Assembly: GCA_018817425.1 (NCBI GenBank)
Contig: JAHITX010000040.1
Location: forward strand, 1-64,000
DNA from: Pseudomonadota bacterium
GTDB taxonomy: Bacteria; Desulfobacterota; Desulfobacteria; Desulfobacterales; RPRI01
DNA: 64,000 nucleotides
Direction: 5' to 3'
Shown here in pieces: positions 3,079-44,563 of this stretch. The translations under genes were made by a program, and so were the position numbers. The stretch's first letter is position 1. Every line of letters starts with the position of its first letter. The notes under the pieces were generated by a model, which saw only the letters and a program-made list of their open reading frames with translations, was not told the DNA's origin and did no database searches.

Positions 3079-3119
3079 TTGACGATGTGTGCCAATCGTA
3101 TATTATACACATTATGTGT
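3079..3119 (+). promoter_or_regulatory. vapBC promoter with overlapping operator dyad
   Basis: TTGACG (3079-3084) and TATTAT (3101-3106) are separated by 16 bp, which makes a good sigma-70 promoter. Immediately downstream is the dyad ACACAT-T-ATGTGT (3107-3119), overlapping the expected transcription start. Toxin-antitoxin operons of this type are usually autorepressed by the antitoxin and the complex at such dyads. That role is inferred here. Confidence 0.65.
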
Positions 3120-3133
3120 GTATGGAGCTTGCT

Positions 3134-3346
3134 ATGAGAACTAATATTGATATTAACGATGAACTATTGGAAGAGGCTTTTTCGGTCAGCCAAATGAGGA
3201 GTAAAAAAGATTTAATTCATGAAGCTTTGCTGGAATATATTAAATTAAAAAAAAGAAAAGATCTTACCGAATTAGCCGGAACAATAGAATTTTATGAAGG
3301 ATATAGCCATAAGGATTTGAGGAAGACAAGAAATGATTCTTGTTGA
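3134..3346 (+). CDS. vapB: VapB-type antitoxin (ribbon-helix-helix)
   Basis: This is a 70-residue antitoxin of a type II toxin-antitoxin pair. The N-terminus MRTNIDINDELLEEA is the typical beta-strand of VapB ribbon-helix-helix antitoxins (DUF2191-like), followed by two helices and a C-terminal tail expected to wrap the toxin. I chose the ATG at 3134 because GGAG sits 6 bases upstream. A frame open from 3089 would add 15 unlikely residues. The gene overlaps the toxin start by 14 bp, which is typical of translational coupling. It should neutralise VapC and repress the promoter at 3079-3119. Confidence 0.85.
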   Translation: MRTNIDINDELLEEAFSVSQMRSKKDLIHEALLEYIKLKKRKDLTELAGTIEFYEGYSHKDLRKTRNDSC

Positions 3347-3746
3347 TACCTCGGTCTGGATTCATATTCTTAGAGATAAAGGCGGCAAAATGGTGCAAGC
3401 CTTTCGTGAAAAAACAGCTTCAGAAATTATTGTGTTCAGTCGTTTTATTCAAATTGAATTGCTTCAGGGCGCAAAAGACGACTTTGAATGGAAACGCCTG
3501 GATGATTATTTATCAAGCCAGTATTATCTTGAAGCTAACGAAAATACTTGGAGGCATGCAGCAAGAATTTATTTTGAACTCCGAAAATCAGGCATTACTG
3601 TGAGCAGTACTATTGATTGCGGTATTGCCTGTATCGCAATGGAAGCAAAAGCTCTGTTACTGCACAGAGATCATGATTTTGAAAAAATTGCAGGAATAAG
3701 ACCTCTTGCGAATGAGTTTTTTGATCCGCTGAGTACTCAAAATTAA
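3333..3746 (+). CDS. vapC: VapC-type PIN-domain ribonuclease toxin
   Basis: This 137-residue PIN-domain protein is the toxin of the vapBC pair. The four expected acidic metal-binding residues are present: D5 (VDTSVW), E42 (QIELLQG), D95 (STIDCGIA) and D115 (HRDHDF). Length and order fit VapC (125-145 residues). Known VapC enzymes are Mg2+-dependent RNases that cleave tRNA or rRNA, and the target here cannot be read from sequence. The active site looks intact, so the module is probably functional. It lies in an accessory stretch with another toxin-antitoxin pair and an intron relic. Confidence 0.9.
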   Translation: MILVDTSVWIHILRDKGGKMVQAFREKTASEIIVFSRFIQIELLQGAKDDFEWKRLDDYLSSQYYLEANENTWRHAARIYFELRKSGITVSSTIDCGIACIAMEAKALLLHRDHDFEKIAGIRPLANEFFDPLSTQN

Positions 3747-4425: not shown

Positions 4426-4758
4426 ATGACATTGAAGTTGCGCAAATGGGATAGCGCCGAATATCTCAAAACCGATGAGGATATGGTCCTGTATCTTGAG
4501 GCCTGCATGGAAGAAGCTGGCGACGATGCAGCTTTCATTGCCAAAGCGCTTGGCAACATCGCCCGCGCCCGTGGAATGAGCCAACTTGCCAAAGACACCG
4601 GGTTGTGCCGAGAGAGCCTGTACAAAGCACTTTCCGGTGAGGGGAATCCGAGCTTTGCAACTATTTTGAAGGTAACACATGCGCTGGGATTCAAGCTGTA
4701 TGTTCAAGGGCAGAGAAAAGACAAACATAAAATTACAAAAATCACCCAACAAAGGTAA
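4426..4758 (+). CDS. HigA-like antitoxin (putative addiction module antidote, XRE-type HTH)
   Basis: This 110-residue protein matches the 'putative addiction module antidote' family that pairs with Gp49/HigB-like toxins. The N-terminus has WDSAEYLKTDEDMVLYLEAC. A helix-turn-helix follows, with QLAKDTGLCRESLYKALSG in the recognition region and then a conserved NPSFATILKVTHALGFKL. AGGAG sits 6 bases before the ATG. The toxin-first order is usual for this pair. The gene itself looks intact even though the toxin lacks a normal start. The last 20 residues are lysine-rich and run towards an intron relic, so the C-terminus may have been altered. Confidence 0.85.
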   Translation: MTLKLRKWDSAEYLKTDEDMVLYLEACMEEAGDDAAFIAKALGNIARARGMSQLAKDTGLCRESLYKALSGEGNPSFATILKVTHALGFKLYVQGQRKDKHKITKITQQR

Positions 4759-5251: not shown

Positions 5252-5878
5252 ATGTCTGAAGAAATAATTAAAATTAATAGTGATGACAATATAATATTAG
5301 AGGGATTGTATGATCCGGGAACAAAAAAACATGGTGTTATCATCACTCATCCGCATCCTCTTTATGGCGGTGATATGTATAATAATGTTGTTGAAGCAAT
5401 CCAATCAGCATATCAAAAAAAAGGATACGCAACATTAAGATTTAATTTCAGAGGAGTGGGTGCAAGCGGCGGTACCTATGACGATGGCATTGGAGAACAA
5501 AAAGATATTATTGCCGGATATAAGTTTTTAAAAACAATGGATGTGGAACAAATTGATCTTTGCGGCTATTCATTCGGAACATGGGTTAATGCTCAAATTA
5601 AAGATCAAATTACAGTTAATTCATCTATTATGGTATCACCGCCTGTGGCTATGATGAAATTTGAAACTGATTTAAAAATTAATCATTTAATACTTGCAGT
5701 AACGGGAAGCGAAGATGGATTTGCGCCACCGGAACTGGTTGAAAAGTTTGTATCAAATTTAAACGGCACGGCTGATATAAAGGTTATTGATGGAGCGGAT
5801 CATTTCTTCTTAGGATATGAAGACAAACTGGCAGAAATTGTTGATAGTTATATAGCAGACAGGCAGCTTGGGAAATAA
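5252..5878 (+). CDS. Alpha/beta-fold hydrolase (COG2945-like)
   Basis: This is a 208-residue cytosolic alpha/beta hydrolase. The N-terminal segment has HGVIITHPHPLYGGDM, FNFRGVGASGGTYDDG and the nucleophile elbow GYSFGT (Ser near residue 107). ADHFF near 190 provides the catalytic histidine, and the acidic residue is probably in TGSEDGF. The short length without a lid matches COG2945 predicted hydrolases. The substrate is unknown. AAAGGAGATAATCC precedes the ATG. A partial, internally deleted duplicate lies at 2440-2617, and the DNA between the copies is full of toxin-antitoxin and intron sequence. Confidence 0.85.
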   Translation: MSEEIIKINSDDNIILEGLYDPGTKKHGVIITHPHPLYGGDMYNNVVEAIQSAYQKKGYATLRFNFRGVGASGGTYDDGIGEQKDIIAGYKFLKTMDVEQIDLCGYSFGTWVNAQIKDQITVNSSIMVSPPVAMMKFETDLKINHLILAVTGSEDGFAPPELVEKFVSNLNGTADIKVIDGADHFFLGYEDKLAEIVDSYIADRQLGK

Positions 5879-5920
5879 TATATCTGCAAGAAAAGAATAT
5901 TTTTAACTACATTATTTGTC

Positions 5921-5949
5921 TTGACACACAAAATCGATCTTTCTATAAT
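5921..5949 (+). promoter_or_regulatory. Consensus sigma-70 promoter without an adjacent gene
   Basis: TTGACA (5921-5926) and TATAAT (5944-5949) are both perfect and the spacer is 17 bp. Start of transcription is expected near 5956. The next protein-coding start is more than 250 bp away and a terminator intervenes at 6092-6116. Confidence 0.8.
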
Positions 5950-5955
5950 CTAAAA

Positions 5956-6116
5956 CAAATAGAAAATATTTACCATAGAATTCAAATCGTTATTACAATT
6001 ATAAACATTCATATGAAAAATAAACGGTAGTTTTTTTGAATTATTAAATTTGGAGTATAATATTTTTTGCTTGTAATAATTTTATAACAGGCCGCGAGAC
6101 AAACGCGGTTTTTTTT
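5956..6116 (+). ncRNA. Candidate small RNA or leader RNA (~160 nt)
   Basis: The span runs from the expected start of the consensus promoter to the end of an intrinsic terminator. It contains no ORF longer than a few codons (ATG AAA AAT AAA CGG TAG is the only short one). It could be a stand-alone small RNA or an attenuated leader of the MarR gene that starts at 6212. I recognise no known RNA family in it. Confidence 0.5.
6092..6116 (+). terminator. Rho-independent terminator
   Basis: CCGCG (6092-6096) pairs with CGCGG (6104-6108) across a 7-base loop, followed by eight T residues. It lies 215 bp after the hydrolase stop and about 95 bp before the MarR gene. Confidence 0.8.
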
Positions 6117-6211
6117 ATGCAAATTAAATGTCAGTATTTAATTCGGATCAGGCAAACACAATAAACAATATTACCTAAAGAGCAGGAATTGCCTTATGGC
6201 AATAATCACTA

Positions 6212-6721
6212 ATGCCAAAAAATACGAAACCCAAACAAATGTCTGAAAATAATTCAGTCCAAACGGAATATATTTATCCAACAACTTCACAAAAAGATAT
6301 AATTCATTCTATCCGAAGGCTTATGCAGGGAGCTGAACTTTACAATAAAGAGATTAATAAAAAATATAATATAAGCGCTGCCCAGGTCAACTGCTTGCTT
6401 GCTCTTAATGAGCACGGTCCTTTGCCACCCTCACAAATTGCAAAAATAATAATGGTTAATTCAAGCACCGTAACAAGTATTATCGACCGCTTGGAACAAA
6501 AAAACTTGGTGGAAAGGCAAAGGATATCCCACGACAGAAGAATTATAACGGTTCAGCTTACAGAAAGTGGGAAAACATTGGCTGAAAACGCTCCTTCTCC
6601 GATTCAGCAAAAAATAATCGACGGGGTAAAAAGGCTCACACCCCAGGAAGTTGAACATATTGTTAATGGCTTGAATATGCTTACAAATATGCTTGATGTT
6701 CAAGATCTTGAAGTTGATTAA
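6212..6721 (+). CDS. MarR-family transcriptional regulator
   Basis: This 169-residue winged-helix regulator carries the central LPPSQIAKIIMVNSSTVTSI recognition region and the wing DRLEQKNLVERQRISHDRR, near residues 72-108. The fold and length suit MarR, and it is reminiscent of EctR-type repressors. The 30-residue N-terminal extension is poorly conserved and the ATG has no clear ribosome-binding site, so a later ATG (6239) is possible. A 16-codon frame (6196-6246) with AGGA in front overlaps the start in another frame. The gene lies directly upstream of the methyltransferase cluster. Two palindromes in that cluster's promoter region are the obvious candidate binding sites. The ligand is unknown. 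Confidence 0.85.
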   Translation: MPKNTKPKQMSENNSVQTEYIYPTTSQKDIIHSIRRLMQGAELYNKEINKKYNISAAQVNCLLALNEHGPLPPSQIAKIIMVNSSTVTSIIDRLEQKNLVERQRISHDRRIITVQLTESGKTLAENAPSPIQQKIIDGVKRLTPQEVEHIVNGLNMLTNMLDVQDLEVD

Positions 6722-6826
6722 AAAAGCTACATCTCTCATTTATTCTTACCTTACTTTATAACCTTACTATCCTTTTTTTAAGATAAAAACCTTGACTTAT
6801 CCAATCCATTACTTTAGTGTTATTGT

Positions 6827-6876
6827 TTCAATACAAAATATATTGAATCAAATAATATTGATATAAAATATATCAA
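6827..6876 (+). promoter_or_regulatory. Two tandem palindromic operators before the mttB-like cluster
   Basis: Palindrome 1 is TTCAATA-N7-TATTGAA (6827-6847). Palindrome 2 is TTGATATA-AAA-TATATCAA (6858-6876). Both are perfect dyads sharing AAAATATAT, and their centres are 30 bp apart, about three helical turns. A TTGACT box (6792-6797) lies upstream. The size and symmetry suit a MarR dimer, and the regulator gene ends 105 bp upstream. Confidence 0.65.
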
Positions 6877-6930
6877 ATGAATAGATCATATAACCTACAT
6901 ATCTAATAATAAACCGGAGTGAGTAGATAA

Positions 6931-8160
6931 ATGAATTCGATAAATTTAAAAAAAGATCAGGTAGATAAATCAACAAATCTGTTGGGTGCTGATACTGTTG
7001 AGATGCTCCTTAAGTCTCATGATGATGCTCTCTGGATACTGGAAAATATGGGTGTAGGCTGCAAACAGGCTGATATCCAGAATGCTTTCCGGCAATTTGA
7101 ATCTGAAGGATTAGCTTTTCAGCATGAAGACCGGATATATGTTACCAGGGAGTTGGTGGAAAAATGTCTGTCTACAACTCCCGGTGTTGATGAATTTTTT
7201 GTTCCTTTAAACAGTTTTTTCATAGGTGGCACGGCCCCATACATTTATGATGATGAAAAAGGAATAGGTGGTATTTTCCCTACGCCCGAACATGTGGCCA
7301 AAATCGCACAAATTGCTGAAGAGCATGATGTTGTAGCCGGTATGGGCAGGGCTATAAAACTGAAAAATGAAGTAGTACAGATGAACATTATGGATAAATA
7401 CTGCTCAAAACCTCTCTATTTTGCAGTGACGTGCGATGCCTCACTGGAACGCGCCAAACAATTATGGGAAGAGAGAAAGAACATCATGATTGTTTTTTGC
7501 CTCACCCGTCCGCCTCTTGAGGTTAATGAAAATTTTTCTGAAAACTTTGTGAAGGTAGTAAAGGCCGGTCTGCCGGTTTTTATATCAGCAATGCCCATGG
7601 GAGGCATCAGTACTTCTTATTCCTATAATGGGGCACTGGCTATGACTCATGCTGAAGTGCTTTTTGGCATCTGTGCCGCTCAATTACTCAATCCCGGTGT
7701 AACTTGTATACATGCAGGTTTTCCGACCATCGCTGATCCTCGGATAGATTATAATCCCAATTACGGTTTGGTCAGTCATAATCTGTTAAACATTTTAATG
7801 ACACATCTTAACCTGATGCTGGATTTGCCGACATTTCAAAGCGCCGGCACTACCCATGAAGAGCATTTGACTCAAAAGGCTTTTGATGACGCCCGCATGG
7901 GACAGGCAATGTGTAAAAAATACGGGGTGCATATGATAAGACATCCCTTTTCTTTTTTAAGATATCTGATTGATTTTTCCATAGCTAAACTTGAAAAAGG
8001 CATTGAAATTGCCCAAGAGGTAACAGCTGATGACGCACCGGAAGTCAGGATGCCTGTTTATGATGAAAGAGGCATGGAATCCATTAAGACTATCGGGCTT
8101 GGTATGTATATGGATGATCCTCTTACTACGGCAAATTTCGGAAAAATATTTGTAAATTAA
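6931..8160 (+). CDS. MttB-family (trimethylamine methyltransferase-like) protein, short form A
   Basis: This 409-residue protein is of the COG5598 MttB superfamily, which transfers methyl groups from quaternary or tertiary amines to a corrinoid protein. Conserved blocks are GGTAPYIYDD (99-108), SAMPMGG (219-225), MTHAEVLFGI (239-248), HAGFPTIA (261-268) and SAGTTHEE (304-311). There is no in-frame TAG, so it is a non-pyrrolysine member. It is well below the usual 470-500 residues, mostly through a shorter N-terminus. No corrinoid protein or corrinoid methyltransferase partner is encoded nearby. A paralogue lies at 12223-13401. The substrate is unknown. GGAGTGAG precedes the start, and two palindromes flank the presumed promoter. 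Confidence 0.8.
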   Translation: MNSINLKKDQVDKSTNLLGADTVEMLLKSHDDALWILENMGVGCKQADIQNAFRQFESEGLAFQHEDRIYVTRELVEKCLSTTPGVDEFFVPLNSFFIGGTAPYIYDDEKGIGGIFPTPEHVAKIAQIAEEHDVVAGMGRAIKLKNEVVQMNIMDKYCSKPLYFAVTCDASLERAKQLWEERKNIMIVFCLTRPPLEVNENFSENFVKVVKAGLPVFISAMPMGGISTSYSYNGALAMTHAEVLFGICAAQLLNPGVTCIHAGFPTIADPRIDYNPNYGLVSHNLLNILMTHLNLMLDLPTFQSAGTTHEEHLTQKAFDDARMGQAMCKKYGVHMIRHPFSFLRYLIDFSIAKLEKGIEIAQEVTADDAPEVRMPVYDERGMESIKTIGLGMYMDDPLTTANFGKIFVN

Positions 8161-8175
8161 TAAAGGAGAAAAACA

Positions 8176-9789
8176 ATGTGTGGCATAGCAGGATGTATAG
8201 GAACACGTGACGTAGATACAATTAATCGTATGTTGGACGCACTTCCTCACAGGGGGCCCAATGATCGCGGACTTCATGTAAACGGAAACATTGTCTTTGG
8301 GCATACCAGACTTTCAATAGTTGATGTGGCTCAGGGTCATCAACCTATCATTAGCAGAGACGGAAACTCAGGTATTGTTTGTAATGGTGAGATTTATAAT
8401 TTCAGAAAACTTAGAAGAAAAATTGACTCAAAGTACAGTTTTCAAACCCAGTCTGATACCGAGACCGTCTTGCATCTCTATCGCGAAAAAGGGCCCGATT
8501 GCCTTAAAGAGCTTGACGGAATGTTTGCCTTTGCCGCTTATAATGGTGATGATTTTATGCTGGCAAGAGATCCTATCGGGATTAAACCTCTTTATTACGG
8601 CATACAGAACGGAAAAATGTATTTTTCTTCGGAATTAGGGGCAATGAGTCATGCCGGTTTGGATGAGGTTCATGAATTTCCGGCCGGACATTATTATACT
8701 CCAAAAGAAGGGTTTGTACAGTTTTATCGGGTGCCTGAGATTGAAGATCATATTCTTGCGGATATTGAGGAGTCATGCGAAATTATAAGAAAGACTTTCA
8801 TTGATGCAGTAAAAAAACGTTTATTGGCAGATCCTGAAGTGCCGGTAGGCTCTTTTTGCAGTGGTGGTCTCGACAGCAGTCTGGTGGCAGCTATAGCTGC
8901 TGATGAAATACCCAACCTGCACACATTTGTCGTAGGCATGCAAGATGAGTATGGCAATTTTAGTGATGATGTAAAAGCTGCACGTATCGCAGCCAAACAT
9001 ATCGGTTCAAATCATCATGAATACATCTTCACTGAAGATGAGTACTATGAAGCGCTTCCTACCGTGATCAATAAACTGGAAAGTTATGATCCATCTCTTG
9101 TCCGTTGTGCTTTGCCCTGTTACTTTACCTGTAAATGTGCTGCGGACTATGTAACGGTAGTACTTACCGGAGAAGGGGCTGATGAGCTTTTTGCCGGATA
9201 TCATTATATGAAAAATTTTCCAATTGACAAACTAAACGAAGAAGGCAGACGCTGTATCGGTAACCTTCATAATATTAATCTTCAAAGAGCTGACCGTATG
9301 GGTATGCTCTTTAGTCTTGAACTCAGAGTCCCGTTTTTAGACACTGCTATGGTTGATCTTTCCATGAAGATACCTCCTGAATTGAAAATTCGTGAACATA
9401 ATGGGGCAAAAATAGAAAAATGGATTTTAAGAAAGGCTTTCGAGGATACTAACTATCTGCCCGATGAAATACTGTGGCGCTACAAGGTTCAGTACACACA
9501 GGGTGCAGGTTGTGAGAGTCTTGGCGAATCTTTAGCTGAGAAAATGATTACTGAAGATGAATATATACAAATTAAAGAAGAAAATCCAACTGCTGTTATT
9601 AATAGCAGGGAAGCCGCCTATTATTTTAAGATTTTTCGCGAGTTTCATCCCCAGGATTCAATTCTTGGATCTATAGGAATATGGACCGGGTTTGATTTTG
9701 CAGAAGAAAGAGAAAAGGTTACAGGAACAGTTGACGGTGATCGCAAACATGAACGGGAAGAAAACGATAAAGAGACCATGGTGGCCTAG
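8176..9789 (+). CDS. Asparagine synthetase-like glutamine-hydrolysing amidotransferase
   Basis: This 537-residue AsnB-type enzyme begins MCGIAGCIG, so Cys2 becomes the N-terminal nucleophile of a class II glutaminase. HRGPND and the NGEIYN block follow. The synthetase domain holds the pyrophosphate loop SGGLDSS near residue 230 and TGEGADELFAGYHY near 330. Such enzymes adenylate a carboxylate and transfer glutamine-derived ammonia to it. It starts 15 bp after the methyltransferase with AAAGGAG, so the two are probably co-transcribed. In this context it may amidate a small molecule rather than aspartate. The last 20 residues are charged and unlike the family. Confidence 0.85.
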   Translation: MCGIAGCIGTRDVDTINRMLDALPHRGPNDRGLHVNGNIVFGHTRLSIVDVAQGHQPIISRDGNSGIVCNGEIYNFRKLRRKIDSKYSFQTQSDTETVLHLYREKGPDCLKELDGMFAFAAYNGDDFMLARDPIGIKPLYYGIQNGKMYFSSELGAMSHAGLDEVHEFPAGHYYTPKEGFVQFYRVPEIEDHILADIEESCEIIRKTFIDAVKKRLLADPEVPVGSFCSGGLDSSLVAAIAADEIPNLHTFVVGMQDEYGNFSDDVKAARIAAKHIGSNHHEYIFTEDEYYEALPTVINKLESYDPSLVRCALPCYFTCKCAADYVTVVLTGEGADELFAGYHYMKNFPIDKLNEEGRRCIGNLHNINLQRADRMGMLFSLELRVPFLDTAMVDLSMKIPPELKIREHNGAKIEKWILRKAFEDTNYLPDEILWRYKVQYTQGAGCESLGESLAEKMITEDEYIQIKEENPTAVINSREAAYYFKIFREFHPQDSILGSIGIWTGFDFAEEREKVTGTVDGDRKHEREENDKETMVA

Positions 9790-9845
9790 CTTTTTTTAAA
9801 GATAGTCTTTTATTACGGCAAAGTAAAATCCCACGCAAGAGTTGT

Positions 9846-9880
9846 GCTTTAGCTATTAGCTCTGGCTGTAGCTAAAGCTA
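9846..9880 (+). terminator. Hairpin, possible weak terminator or processing site
   Basis: GCTTTAGCTA (9846-9855) and TAGCTAAAGC (9869-9878) form a perfect 10-bp stem with a 13-base loop, followed by TATTTT. It sits in the 216-bp gap between the amidotransferase and the flavoprotein and may reduce read-through. Confidence 0.5.
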
Positions 9881-10005
9881 TTTTGGCTTACGGACAGTTA
9901 TATTTAATCCCTCAATATTTACTTGTCTCTTATATGATTCTTTTTCTTTGCCGACTCAATTCGTAATTTTTTATATAGATAATAAACCTTAAGGAGGTAA
10001 ATTTT

Positions 10006-11337
10006 ATGGCGTTTCCTACGCATTCAAAATACGTTATTATAGGAGCGGGGATTCACGGGCTTAGCACTGCTTTTCATCTATCCGGTGAATTAAAGAAAAG
10101 GGGCTCAGGGTCAGGAAAAGATATAATTGTTCTTGATAAAACTGCTATCGGAGCCGGAGCATCCGGAATCGCCTGTGGAGTTATAAGGAATAATTATTTT
10201 CAGGCAGCTATGCAGGAAATTATGATGCACAGCGTAAATGTATGGGATGAAGATGTTGAAGGTTATGGTTATTGGCCTGTTGGATATATGCAGATTTCGC
10301 CGGAAAGTATGCATGAAGGTGTATCCCAAATATATGAGCGGCAGAAAAAGCTTTCTTATGATTCAGTATTTATCGAAGGCGAAAAAGATTGCCTTGAATA
10401 CATGAAAAAAAATGTATTTGATGACTGGCAGGCACAAGGCGTAACTTCGATCCTTCACGAAAAAAGAGGAGGATACGCTCACAATGCCCGTGCTTTATAC
10501 AGACTTGCGGACAAAGCTGAAGCATTAGGCGTAAGGATATTAACAGGAGTCAAAGTGGAAGGTTTTGACTACAAGGATTGTATTACAGCCGTTGAAACCG
10601 ACAAGGGTAAGATTTCATGTGATTATGTGATTGCCGGACCGGGCCCATGGGGCAATAAGCTCTGGGAAATGATAGGTATGCCGGACAAAATAAATATTAA
10701 AGGTACAGACGGAAAGATTCATACGGATGTGAAAATGTGGACTTATCTGTCACTTCAGGAAGGTACACTTGGCGTAGATCCGGAATACGGTTATGATAAG
10801 TGGGGTAAGATGCCCCCGGTTATGCATGTGGACAGCAATTCTCCTCTGTATTCCAGTGAAGACGGTTCGCTGATCACGGACAAAATGTGGGGCATCTATT
10901 ATAAACCCGATTGTAATTTCAATGGTATTCAGGGAGGCGCTATGCCGAACCTTGTAGAAAAAGATGAAATAAACGTTGATCCCTATGGAATCGATTCACC
11001 GGATTTCATCGTAGGCCCTGAATTTGCCCATATGTGGACTTCTGCTTTGGCACATTGCCAAAAACGATATGAAAATAAATATCAATTATACAAAAATGAA
11101 CCTTCAGGCGGATTAGGAATCTTTACTCCGGATAATTTCCCTGTATTTGATGTGTTTAAACAAAATTGCTATATGATATTAGATTCCAGTCACGGTTATA
11201 AGATGATAGGTATTGGCAAGCTGGTGGCCCAGGAAATTTTGGGAGAAAAACAGGAGTTGTTAAAACCCTTCCGCTTTGATCGGTATGAAAAGGGAGAACT
11301 TCTTCCGGTATCCAGCAGTCCTTTTCCGTGGAGCTGA
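10006..11337 (+). CDS. FAD-dependent oxidoreductase (DAO / sarcosine oxidase-like)
   Basis: This 443-residue flavoprotein of the D-amino-acid oxidase family has a dinucleotide-binding GAGIHGLSTA at residues 13-22 and GAGASGIACG in the segment that contacts FAD. Later come VIAGPGPWGNKLW and a C-terminal DSSHGYKMIGIGKLVAQEI. Family members oxidise secondary or tertiary amines, for example N-methyl groups of sarcosine or dimethylglycine. AAGGAGG gives a strong ribosome-binding site. It lies between two MttB-like genes, so oxidation of an N-methylated compound is the natural guess, but the substrate is not readable. The 216-bp upstream gap may hold its own promoter. Confidence 0.82.
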   Translation: MAFPTHSKYVIIGAGIHGLSTAFHLSGELKKRGSGSGKDIIVLDKTAIGAGASGIACGVIRNNYFQAAMQEIMMHSVNVWDEDVEGYGYWPVGYMQISPESMHEGVSQIYERQKKLSYDSVFIEGEKDCLEYMKKNVFDDWQAQGVTSILHEKRGGYAHNARALYRLADKAEALGVRILTGVKVEGFDYKDCITAVETDKGKISCDYVIAGPGPWGNKLWEMIGMPDKINIKGTDGKIHTDVKMWTYLSLQEGTLGVDPEYGYDKWGKMPPVMHVDSNSPLYSSEDGSLITDKMWGIYYKPDCNFNGIQGGAMPNLVEKDEINVDPYGIDSPDFIVGPEFAHMWTSALAHCQKRYENKYQLYKNEPSGGLGIFTPDNFPVFDVFKQNCYMILDSSHGYKMIGIGKLVAQEILGEKQELLKPFRFDRYEKGELLPVSSSPFPWS

Positions 11338-11349
11338 TAAATAAGTAGA

Positions 11350-12201
11350 ATGGATATCACAATACTTGGTTCCGGCGGATGCATGATAATCCCAAAGCCT
11401 TTATGTAAATGCCGGGTTTGTAGTGAAGCAAGAGAAAAAGGGGGGCCTTATAGAAGAACAGGCCCCTCTGTTTTTATACATGATGAGAACATCCTTATTG
11501 ATACGCCTGTTGAAATTGCTTATCAATTAAACCGTTCAGGCATAGAGCAGATTAATTATCTTCTTTTTACACATCTGGACCCGGATCATGTAGAAGGCTT
11601 CAGGGTTGTGGAACAGATAACTCTGGATTTTCGCACATGGCGGGCCTACGAAGGTAAATGCATTAAACTTGTTTTGCCGGAAGAATTGTTTGGCCGCCTC
11701 GGGAATATTCAGTCATGTTATGGTTCAATAATAGACTTTTACCGTTTAAGTGGTTTTGTGCATTGTATTTCCTATAGCAAAAGCATAAAATTGGGTGCTG
11801 TTCGGGTAACTGCCATTCCTGTTGACCGTGGGAATCAGACAGCTTTTGTATATGTAATTCAAAAAAACTCTAAAAAGATAATTTATGCTCCATGCGATAT
11901 AAAACCATTTCCGGAAAGCAGGAAGGAAATACAAGATGCCGATCTGCTTATAATTCAGCCAGGCATATTTGAAAACGGCCTTAAACATGACTTTAAATAT
12001 CCGGATGATCATATCTCAAGAACTACGCTTTATACTTTTGAAGAAACACTAAAACTGGCAAAACGAATAAATTCAAAAAAGGTTTTGCTCACTCATATTG
12101 AAGAATACTGGAACAGAAGCTATGATGATTACAAGGAATTGGAAAAGCAATTCGATAACATCAAGTTTGCATATGACGGGTTAAGAATCAATATACAATA
12201 A
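11350..12201 (+). CDS. PhnP-like metallo-beta-lactamase-fold hydrolase
   Basis: This is a 283-residue MBL-fold enzyme. An N-terminal cysteine cluster, CKCRVC near residue 20 and then RRTGPSVFI, resembles the structural zinc loop of PhnP-type cyclic phosphodiesterases. The metal motif reads THLDPDH, with aspartate where HxHxDH has its second histidine. Later metal ligands may be CD (YAPCDI), DDH (PDDHIS) and THIEEYW. The substituted motif makes the chemistry uncertain. It starts 12 bp after the flavoprotein and is probably in its operon. It may open a cyclic phosphate or an ester made by the cluster. Confidence 0.75.
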   Translation: MDITILGSGGCMIIPKPLCKCRVCSEAREKGGPYRRTGPSVFIHDENILIDTPVEIAYQLNRSGIEQINYLLFTHLDPDHVEGFRVVEQITLDFRTWRAYEGKCIKLVLPEELFGRLGNIQSCYGSIIDFYRLSGFVHCISYSKSIKLGAVRVTAIPVDRGNQTAFVYVIQKNSKKIIYAPCDIKPFPESRKEIQDADLLIIQPGIFENGLKHDFKYPDDHISRTTLYTFEETLKLAKRINSKKVLLTHIEEYWNRSYDDYKELEKQFDNIKFAYDGLRINIQ

Positions 12202-12222
12202 ACAGCAGGATATCATAATAAA

Positions 12223-13401
12223 ATGGAATTAATTCAGCAAGCATATCTGGAAAGAATACATAATGACGCTCTTCGTGTTTTGGAAGAAGTCGGCGTTAAA
12301 TGTGAATCTATTAAAATAAGGCAGCTATTTGAGGAAACCGGCCTTGCTGCCTATGATGAATCTTCCGGGACAATCCATATTCTCTCGCCTCTGGTAGAAC
12401 AGGCTTTAAATACTGCTCCTAAACGGGATCAGTACTGGATTCCGGAAAATTCTTTCGGTGTTGGAGGAACAGCCCCTTTTGTTTATGATGATAACAGTGG
12501 AGAGTTGATTGAACCAAAAATTGAACATCTGGTAAAGATAGCCCAGCTTGTTGATAAAGCTGATGTGGTTGATTTTATGGCAAGAGGTGTGCTTATCGTT
12601 AAGCAGGAAGTAAAAGTGATGGATACAATAATTGAGCATTGCCGCAAACCCATATATGTGGCTGCCTTAACCGATGAAGGTATAGCCCGTGCCAAAGAAA
12701 TCCATGATACAAGAGGATTGATCACAGTGCAGTTTTCCATTATAAACAGCCCATTAAATATTATTGAGAGTATGGTAGATCCTTTTCTTTCATGTGTTAA
12801 AAGCGGTATTCCGATTTATGTATCGACCATGCCTATGGCGGGCCTGTCCGGTCCTTATTCCATGTCGGGACTTTTGACACTTACTCATGCCGAGGCGCTG
12901 TTTGGAATTACATTAACCCAGCTGGCAAACCCAGGCCTGATGGTTGTCCATGCGGGTCTGCCATCCATAGCCAATATCCGAAAAAATTATGCGGTTGATC
13001 TGGGTCTTATATCACATAATGTAGCAAATCTGCTGATAGAAAAAGTAAACAAGATGCTTGATATTCCATCTATCCAGACTGCCTGCACTACCAATGAGGA
13101 TAAACCGGGCAAAAGGGCGGAAGAAGATGCCATCAACGGTTTTGCAATGATGAAAAAATACGGCTTTCATCAGATGCGACATTCCTTTGGATTTTTAAAG
13201 GAATTGATCTCATTTTCAATACCTAAGTTAGAAAGACATATTGATTTATGTCGCGAAACAACTGCAAAGCAGTCCCCTGATTATGAACTGGAACCTTATG
13301 ATGAAGAAGGTCTTAATACAATTATCAGAAACGGAATCAATGCCAATTATATGAGAGATGAAAATACCCTTACAAATACAGGAAGATGCTTTTTAAACTA
13401 A
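12223..13401 (+). CDS. MttB-family (trimethylamine methyltransferase-like) protein, short form B
   Basis: This 392-residue paralogue of 6931-8160 shares GGTAPFVYDD (81-90), STMPMAGLSGPYS, LTHAEALFGI, HAGLPSIAN, GLISHN and QTACTTNED. Roughly two in five positions look identical by hand alignment. It has no internal TAG and no pyrrolysine. Like its partner it is about 80-100 residues shorter than characterised MttB or MtgB proteins. As I recall, many full-length family members carry SDSK-like residues where both copies have TTNED or TTHEE. The pair could act as a heteromer or on successive methyl groups. It follows the MBL gene by 21 bp and precedes the amidase by a few bases. Confidence 0.8.
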   Translation: MELIQQAYLERIHNDALRVLEEVGVKCESIKIRQLFEETGLAAYDESSGTIHILSPLVEQALNTAPKRDQYWIPENSFGVGGTAPFVYDDNSGELIEPKIEHLVKIAQLVDKADVVDFMARGVLIVKQEVKVMDTIIEHCRKPIYVAALTDEGIARAKEIHDTRGLITVQFSIINSPLNIIESMVDPFLSCVKSGIPIYVSTMPMAGLSGPYSMSGLLTLTHAEALFGITLTQLANPGLMVVHAGLPSIANIRKNYAVDLGLISHNVANLLIEKVNKMLDIPSIQTACTTNEDKPGKRAEEDAINGFAMMKKYGFHQMRHSFGFLKELISFSIPKLERHIDLCRETTAKQSPDYELEPYDEEGLNTIIRNGINANYMRDENTLTNTGRCFLN

Positions 13402-13417
13402 AAAAGGGATGAAACAA

Positions 13418-14338
13418 ATGAATGTAACTGTTTATCAGACAAGTCCCGTACTTCTGGATCTAAAGTCTAACCTGAAAGACATTATCGGCAAAATTCATCA
13501 GGGCAAAGAACAAGGAGCCCAGCTTATGGTATTTCCGGAACTTGCGTTAACAGGATATTTTGTTGGTAAACGACATCATAAAGTAGCACTTAGGCTTGAT
13601 TCCAAAGAAATCACGAAATTAGCCTCTGCCACAAAAGGTACGGCTGCAGTCATTGGTTTTATTGAGGAATCGCCTTCTATGAATTTTTATAATTCAGCTC
13701 TGGTGGCTATAGACGGAGAAATAGCTTTTGCCGTAAGAAAGCTGAATCTTCCCAACTATGGCGTTTTTGAAGAAAGAAAATTTTTTTCATCCGGAAAGCA
13801 TATTCCGGTTTTTAAACTACATGATTTTACTATTGCTGTCTTTATATGCAATGACCTCTGGCATCCTTCCCTGCCATATCTTGGCGTGACACAAAAAGCC
13901 GATATTTTTATTACAATATTCAATTCTTCTCAGGGTTCAATGGGGACAGCTTTTAGCAATATTGAAACTTGGTCGATTATAAATAGATTTTATTCCCGCG
14001 TTTTCGGTATTTATAATATATGCGCAAACCGGGTCGGAGAAGAAGGTCTTATAGAAAAAAGAGATATTAATTACACTGATGAATTATTGGACGATAATCC
14101 TGAACCTTACAGATTCTGGGGTGGAAGCGAAATACTTAATCCTTTTGGACAGGTTATAGCTCAGGCTAAAATGTATGAACCGGATGAAATTTCTGCCGAG
14201 TTATCAAGAGATTTGCTTCGACAAAAAAGAATTCTCCTGCCTTATTTAAGAAACGATGATCCTTATTTTACTCACCGGGAGCTTGGCCGTATTTTATTTG
14301 GTAGTGAAAAAGGACCTCCATTTAAACCTAAAATATAA
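13418..14338 (+). CDS. Nitrilase-superfamily carbon-nitrogen hydrolase
   Basis: This is about 306 residues with the Glu-Lys-Cys triad of the nitrilase superfamily. The glutamate is in FPELALTGY, the lysine in RKLNLPNYG and the cysteine in FICNDLWHPS. Such enzymes hydrolyse amides or nitriles, or act as glutaminase partners. AGGGATG overlaps the first possible ATG (13409), so the ATG at 13418 is preferred. It is the last gene of the methyltransferase cluster. With the amidotransferase upstream, it suggests that an amide is formed and later removed. A weak AT-only hairpin follows the stop. Confidence 0.85.
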   Translation: MNVTVYQTSPVLLDLKSNLKDIIGKIHQGKEQGAQLMVFPELALTGYFVGKRHHKVALRLDSKEITKLASATKGTAAVIGFIEESPSMNFYNSALVAIDGEIAFAVRKLNLPNYGVFEERKFFSSGKHIPVFKLHDFTIAVFICNDLWHPSLPYLGVTQKADIFITIFNSSQGSMGTAFSNIETWSIINRFYSRVFGIYNICANRVGEEGLIEKRDINYTDELLDDNPEPYRFWGGSEILNPFGQVIAQAKMYEPDEISAELSRDLLRQKRILLPYLRNDDPYFTHRELGRILFGSEKGPPFKPKI

Positions 14339-44477: not shown

Positions 44478-44563
44478 GGTGCCGAAGCGGGGACTTGAAC
44501 CCCGATGGAGAATCCTCCACTAGACCCTGAACCTAGCGCGTCTACCAGTTCCGCCACTTCGGC
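44478..44563 (-). tRNA. tRNA-Leu (anticodon CAG)
   Basis: On the minus strand the molecule begins GCCGAAG and ends CTTCGGCACCA, so the acceptor stem is perfect and CCA is encoded. The anticodon loop is TTCAGGG, giving CAG and reading CUG. A long variable arm (TGGAGGATTCTCCA region) is typical of leucine tRNA. The T loop contains GGTTCAAGTCC. The length is 86 nt. Confidence 0.95.

Follow-up and report, generated by a model that had tools for sequence, protein, structure and literature searches.

We suggest, with about as much confidence as doubt, that the unit at 5921-6116 of the window (the whole 64,000-nt stretch of DNA that was analysed) is an approximately 160-nt 5' leader of a marR-family gene, which would end early at an intrinsic terminator and feed marR by read-through. 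Judged from their sequence, the promoter and the terminator that bound this unit are real signals, and they are kept between two sister species. The features on which the argument turns are as follows, "sister" being the related genome G006 with its orthologous locus L051:

5921-5949, + strand: sigma70-type promoter TTGACA-17-TATAAT, matching the consensus at 12/12 positions; TTGACA-17-TATACT in the sister
5956-6117, + strand: predicted terminated RNA of about 160 nt, its start placed from the -10 element; homologous stretch L051:1611-1752
6089-6116, + strand: intrinsic terminator, a hairpin with a CCGCG/CGCGG core followed by T8; the sister has the same stem core and T tract but with another loop
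6161-6195, + strand: 35-nt block before marR, 34/35 identical in the sister
6196-6246, + strand: 16-codon frame that overlaps the start of marR; the sister has it open as well, but without the ATG
6212-6721, + strand: marR-family regulator gene (Pfam PF01047, E 1.3e-17; codon-position pattern), starting at 6212 or, less likely, at 6239
6821-6841, + strand, upstream of the mttB-like gene: probable MarR operator, the best matrix match in the 64-kb window

Layout of the unit and the proposed leader

The promoter and the terminator share the + strand in a 333-nt gap between the end of an alpha/beta-hydrolase gene at 5878 and the marR start at 6212, and 140 bp separate the end of TATAAT at 5949 from the start of the hairpin near 6089-6092. 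The terminator reads CCGCG-AGACAAA-CGCGG and then TTTTTTTT at 6092-6116, i.e. a stem of five all-GC core pairs (eight with the outer pairs), a seven-base loop and eight Ts; folded alone it gives -10.3 kcal/mol with a z-score of -3.3 in the window and of -2.55 in the sister. The + strand of the gap (5879-6211) has no open reading frame of at least 60 aa. Within the 160-nt span the longest ATG/GTG/TTG frame that lies wholly inside has 8 codons, a Shine-Dalgarno-like lead was not seen, and no frame contained entirely in the RNA has a start that is shared with the sister. Thus, the first-pass annotation was right to describe a perfect promoter and a terminator 140 bp apart with no gene between them, and about 160 nt without coding potential between the hydrolase and marR genes. 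Upstream of the hydrolase gene lie a VapB/PIN toxin-antitoxin pair and an HI1420-type addiction-module antidote gene (3089-3746 and 4426-4758).

A perfect promoter arose in 1/2000 dinucleotide shuffles of the 333-nt gap, as did a strict terminator, and when a pair was defined as a promoter of at least 11/12 with a terminator 60-260 nt away, both strands of the 64-kb window held one such pair, the 5921/6116 unit, versus none in 30 shuffles of the window. A loose scan of the window gave no excess of either kind of site (11 promoter-like sites against a mean of 11.6, two terminator-like sites against 3.0), so that site quality alone, and not site number, stands out. Similarly, the exact string TTGACA-N17-TATAAT occurs five times in the 5.12-Mb genome versus three times for the reversed control pattern; by itself the perfect promoter string is therefore not rarer than chance allows and is weak evidence, and the case is carried by its pairing with the terminator and by conservation.

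The arrangement is that of an early-terminated leader: the promoter lies upstream, the intrinsic terminator lies between promoter and gene, and all are on one strand. In the window, the stretch from the terminator to marR has no promoter-like site of at least 9/12 and its consensus matches are very poor, which makes read-through from the strong promoter the simplest model for the supply of marR. In the same region of the sister there are promoter-like sites at 9/12, e.g. TTGAGA-17-AACAAT. We suggest that RNA polymerase would start at the strong promoter at 5921, that most transcription would stop at the terminator at 6116 to give the leader RNA of about 160 nt, and that a minority of polymerases would read through into marR, which would depend on them. 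A strong start combined with a fixed, presumably unregulated early stop would keep the supply of the repressor low and steady, and the repressor would act on the predicted operator before the downstream mttB-like gene.

Understood in this way, the marR leader looks like an ordinary, known kind of control element. Control by early termination within 5' UTRs is documented, and in E. coli such transcript ends have been located by 3'-end sequencing (PMC7815308). In common with the early-terminated E. coli 5' UTRs, the marR unit has a promoter, a predicted untranslated leader, an intrinsic terminator and a gene on one strand; unlike them, its leader is predicted from sequence, and it lacks a conserved element to make the stop conditional. 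Our literature search found nothing on a MarR-family leader RNA with attenuation or terminator read-through, which we do not take as absence in print. If the proposal is true, it adds one more case in which a terminator built into the leader holds down the expression of a regulator, here in bacteria that are uncultured and Desulfobacterota-like. It would also be a small example, within one genus, of a repressor shifting from operator-type self-control to leader-type control, but it raises no long-standing question.

Conservation in the sister species

The marR-mttB locus is present in two of the ten genomes of the genus that were examined, the source genome and G006. Before the orthologous marR of G006 we find TTGACA-17-TATACT, a CCGCG hairpin with a 7-nt loop and T8. 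The gene upstream of the unit differs between the two genomes (abhydrolase in the window, OmpA-like in G006, by our reading of the open reading frames) and the convincing alignment begins just before the promoter, identity ahead of it being 17/31. Because the unit is kept before marR despite the different upstream gene, it belongs to the marR locus.

As a neutral yardstick we used four-fold degenerate sites in marR and in the three downstream genes, at which 444/595 positions (74.6%) are identical. Against this rate the terminator stem and T-tract are identical at 19/19 positions with a changed loop (p ~0.004, for a segment picked after the alignment had been seen). Taken as a whole, the promoter (-35 to -10) is no better kept than the four-fold sites (22/29 identical), its -10 reading TATACT in the sister; 15 nt around the -35 element are unbroken in the sister (p 0.012, again for a segment chosen after seeing the alignment). 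The block at 6161-6195, at 34/35, differs from the four-fold rate with p 0.0005 when picked in the same post-alignment manner, and the stretch that precedes it is identical at only 29/43 positions. This block may be a marR promoter, an operator of another factor or a ribosome site; being better kept than the promoter, it could hold a marR promoter that is invisible to the consensus scan, which counts against the leader reading, and the TTGAGA-17-AACAAT match of the sister lies close to it. Since only two genomes carry the unit, all of this conservation amounts to one comparison.

The RNA body and alternative readings

Between its two ends the RNA is close to neutral: 76/109 positions are identical in the sister and 20 columns are lost there (lower-tail p 0.15). 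This drift is expected of a spacer of which the ends alone matter, as in the early-terminated leader that we favor. It speaks against the most tenable of the alternatives, a stand-alone sRNA gene that makes a trans-acting RNA of about 160 nt, with a separate marR promoter within 6161-6195, as the body shows no sequence constraint (76/109 versus 444/595 at the four-fold sites). Its fold as a whole is also unremarkable, with z-scores of -1.28 for 5956-6120 and of -0.91 in the sister. At the gathering threshold, Rfam identifies only a tRNA at 44480-44563 in the whole window, and a known RNA family for the leader was rejected after a permissive search of 5880-6260 gave a best E of 0.96 (21.1 bits against a gathering threshold of 55). 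The source genome yielded no second copy at a convincing score. On the other side, the unit has its own promoter and terminator in an intergenic gap with no open reading frame, and a block kept at 34/35 is what a separate marR promoter or operator could look like. Intergenic promoters combined with rho-independent terminators are the features from which sRNAscanner predicts sRNAs (PMC2916834), and the marR-upstream gap has exactly both signals and no open reading frames; it differs from sRNA genes of that type in having no conserved body or structure, in its absence from Rfam and in keeping its place before marR. Taking both sides together, we regard an sRNA gene as possible but doubtful.

The distribution of the unit bears on a further alternative, namely that it is a remnant or noise: an old unit that has lost its gene, or fortuitous signals, with a terminator that merely insulates marR from upstream transcription. 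In a DNA search of 96 relatives only G006 matched over the greater part of the query (E 2.2e-30), and the second-best hit reached E 6.9e-4 over 54 nt; the matches at E<=1 in 81 of the 96 are taken as AT-rich noise. A covariance model built from both sequences found 2/291 genomes of the order, both of them in the model, and among 35 sources including the window it again recovered only those two, with the next at E 3.9. No marR relative was detected in viral contigs. The marR search gave 33 loci, of which the 26 at 62-92% identity (L051-L076) were scanned and seven at 27-43% (L077-L083) were left out, for a promoter of at least 10/12 and a terminator within 650 nt upstream or up to the contig limit (less than 650 nt in L059 and L074). 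Only the sister locus L051 had both upstream of marR; the other 25 orthologues (62-68% identity; from Desulfobacteraceae, Desulfobacterales, Desulfobacteria or Deltaproteobacteria, nearly all metagenome assemblies) had a terminator in 0/25 and a promoter-like site in 4/25. The first-pass annotation had proposed to judge the unit by its conservation in relatives and by a covariance search. The unit is kept in one sister and lacking in 25/25 more distant orthologues, and among the 291 genomes the covariance search recovered only the two from which the model was built. This narrow distribution, the neutral body and a promoter at the neutral level of identity are what a remnant or noise would give. 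Such an origin nevertheless appears unlikely to us given that neither the terminator stem and T-tract nor the 15 nt around the -35 element have changed since the split from the sister, although neutral sites differ by 25%.

The leader might instead be an attenuator under regulation, by a riboswitch, a leader peptide or protein-dependent antitermination. The order of promoter, leader, terminator and regulator gene could be cited for this, as could a short body helix in which two pairs show two-sided changes from one species to the other. We consider it very unlikely, as the 5' arm of the terminator has no pairing partner of at least 5 nt in the leader, partners of the 3' arm are limited to 5-6 nt with G-U pairs, the 160 nt hold no leader frame with a visible ribosome site, the body is neutral with its 20 lost columns, and the two covarying pairs (of 21 from RNAalifold on the two species) come from only two AT-rich sequences and are not evidence. 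An sRNA or an attenuated leader, as the first-pass annotation had proposed, was nonetheless the right pair of choices for a unit that is kept in the sister; what the comparison did not bear out is constraint inside the RNA or an antiterminator.

The marR start and the probable MarR operator

The 16-codon frame at 6196-6246 exists, as the first-pass annotation had noted, and was thought to add to the idea of leader control. In the sister the same TGA is reached, the ATG at 6196 is TAT and another ATG lies 12 nt upstream. Its ten differences from the sister fall 4/5/1 on codon positions 1/2/3, the reverse of selection on a peptide, and leader-peptide selection is therefore not supported; the differences in the marR frame at 6212-6300 fall 4/1/8, as marR coding predicts. 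A leader peptide was rejected on the lost ATG and the 4/5/1 pattern, the stop being kept, and the frame is accordingly a weak argument for leader control. In both species its TGA overlaps a further in-frame ATG of marR, at 6239 (ATGTCTGA in the window, ATGCCTGA in the sister), so that translation of marR may be coupled to the 16-codon frame.

In MarR-family repressors an operator near the marR start is the general pattern. The protein studied here has a MarR domain, and its distant orthologues have an operator-like motif resembling TTTGAGCTAAAA close to the start of marR, directly before the gene and without any leader, which counts against a leader in the window. The species pair departs from this pattern in that its best motif match is upstream of the mttB-like gene, the place before marR being taken by a leader unit. 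We scored operators with a matrix of 16 operator-like sites from distant orthologues, aligned by eye and none of them from this species pair. The site at 6821-6841 scores 12.2 bits and its counterpart in the sister 12.6, compared with 11.2 for the runner-up elsewhere in the window and 9.8 for one of the training sites; given the small margin between 12.2 and 11.2, the position before the mttB-like gene carries the weight. A MarR operator before marR was rejected, the best candidate there scoring only 9.0 bits (6061-6081, minus strand). With the best match before the mttB-like gene and nothing comparable before marR, the predicted sites fit a MarR that represses the mttB operon and not strongly itself.

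A more elaborate version of the leader would be specific to the genus, the conserved early terminator setting the MarR level, translation being coupled to the short overlapping frame, and the whole taking the place of the autoregulatory operator found before marR in distant orthologues. We consider this combination quite improbable.

The motif shared near the marR start, of the form TTATTTGAGCTAAAAAATT, is found in L023, L029, L031, L056, L064, L075, L076 and others, and is probably the MarR operator. The marR-mttB intergenic region (6719-6930) contains AT-rich inverted repeats in addition to the probable operator and differs from the sister at a handful of positions over about 215 nt; the four-fold sites of mttB are less kept (141/167). 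The cluster that follows at 6931-14338 begins with an MttB-like methyltransferase, which matches the trimethylamine family model only in part, and also encodes an asparagine-synthase-like amidotransferase, an FAD oxidase, a PhnP-like metallohydrolase, a second MttB-like protein and a nitrilase-like protein. Neighbours similar to this cluster follow the MarR orthologue in several other loci.
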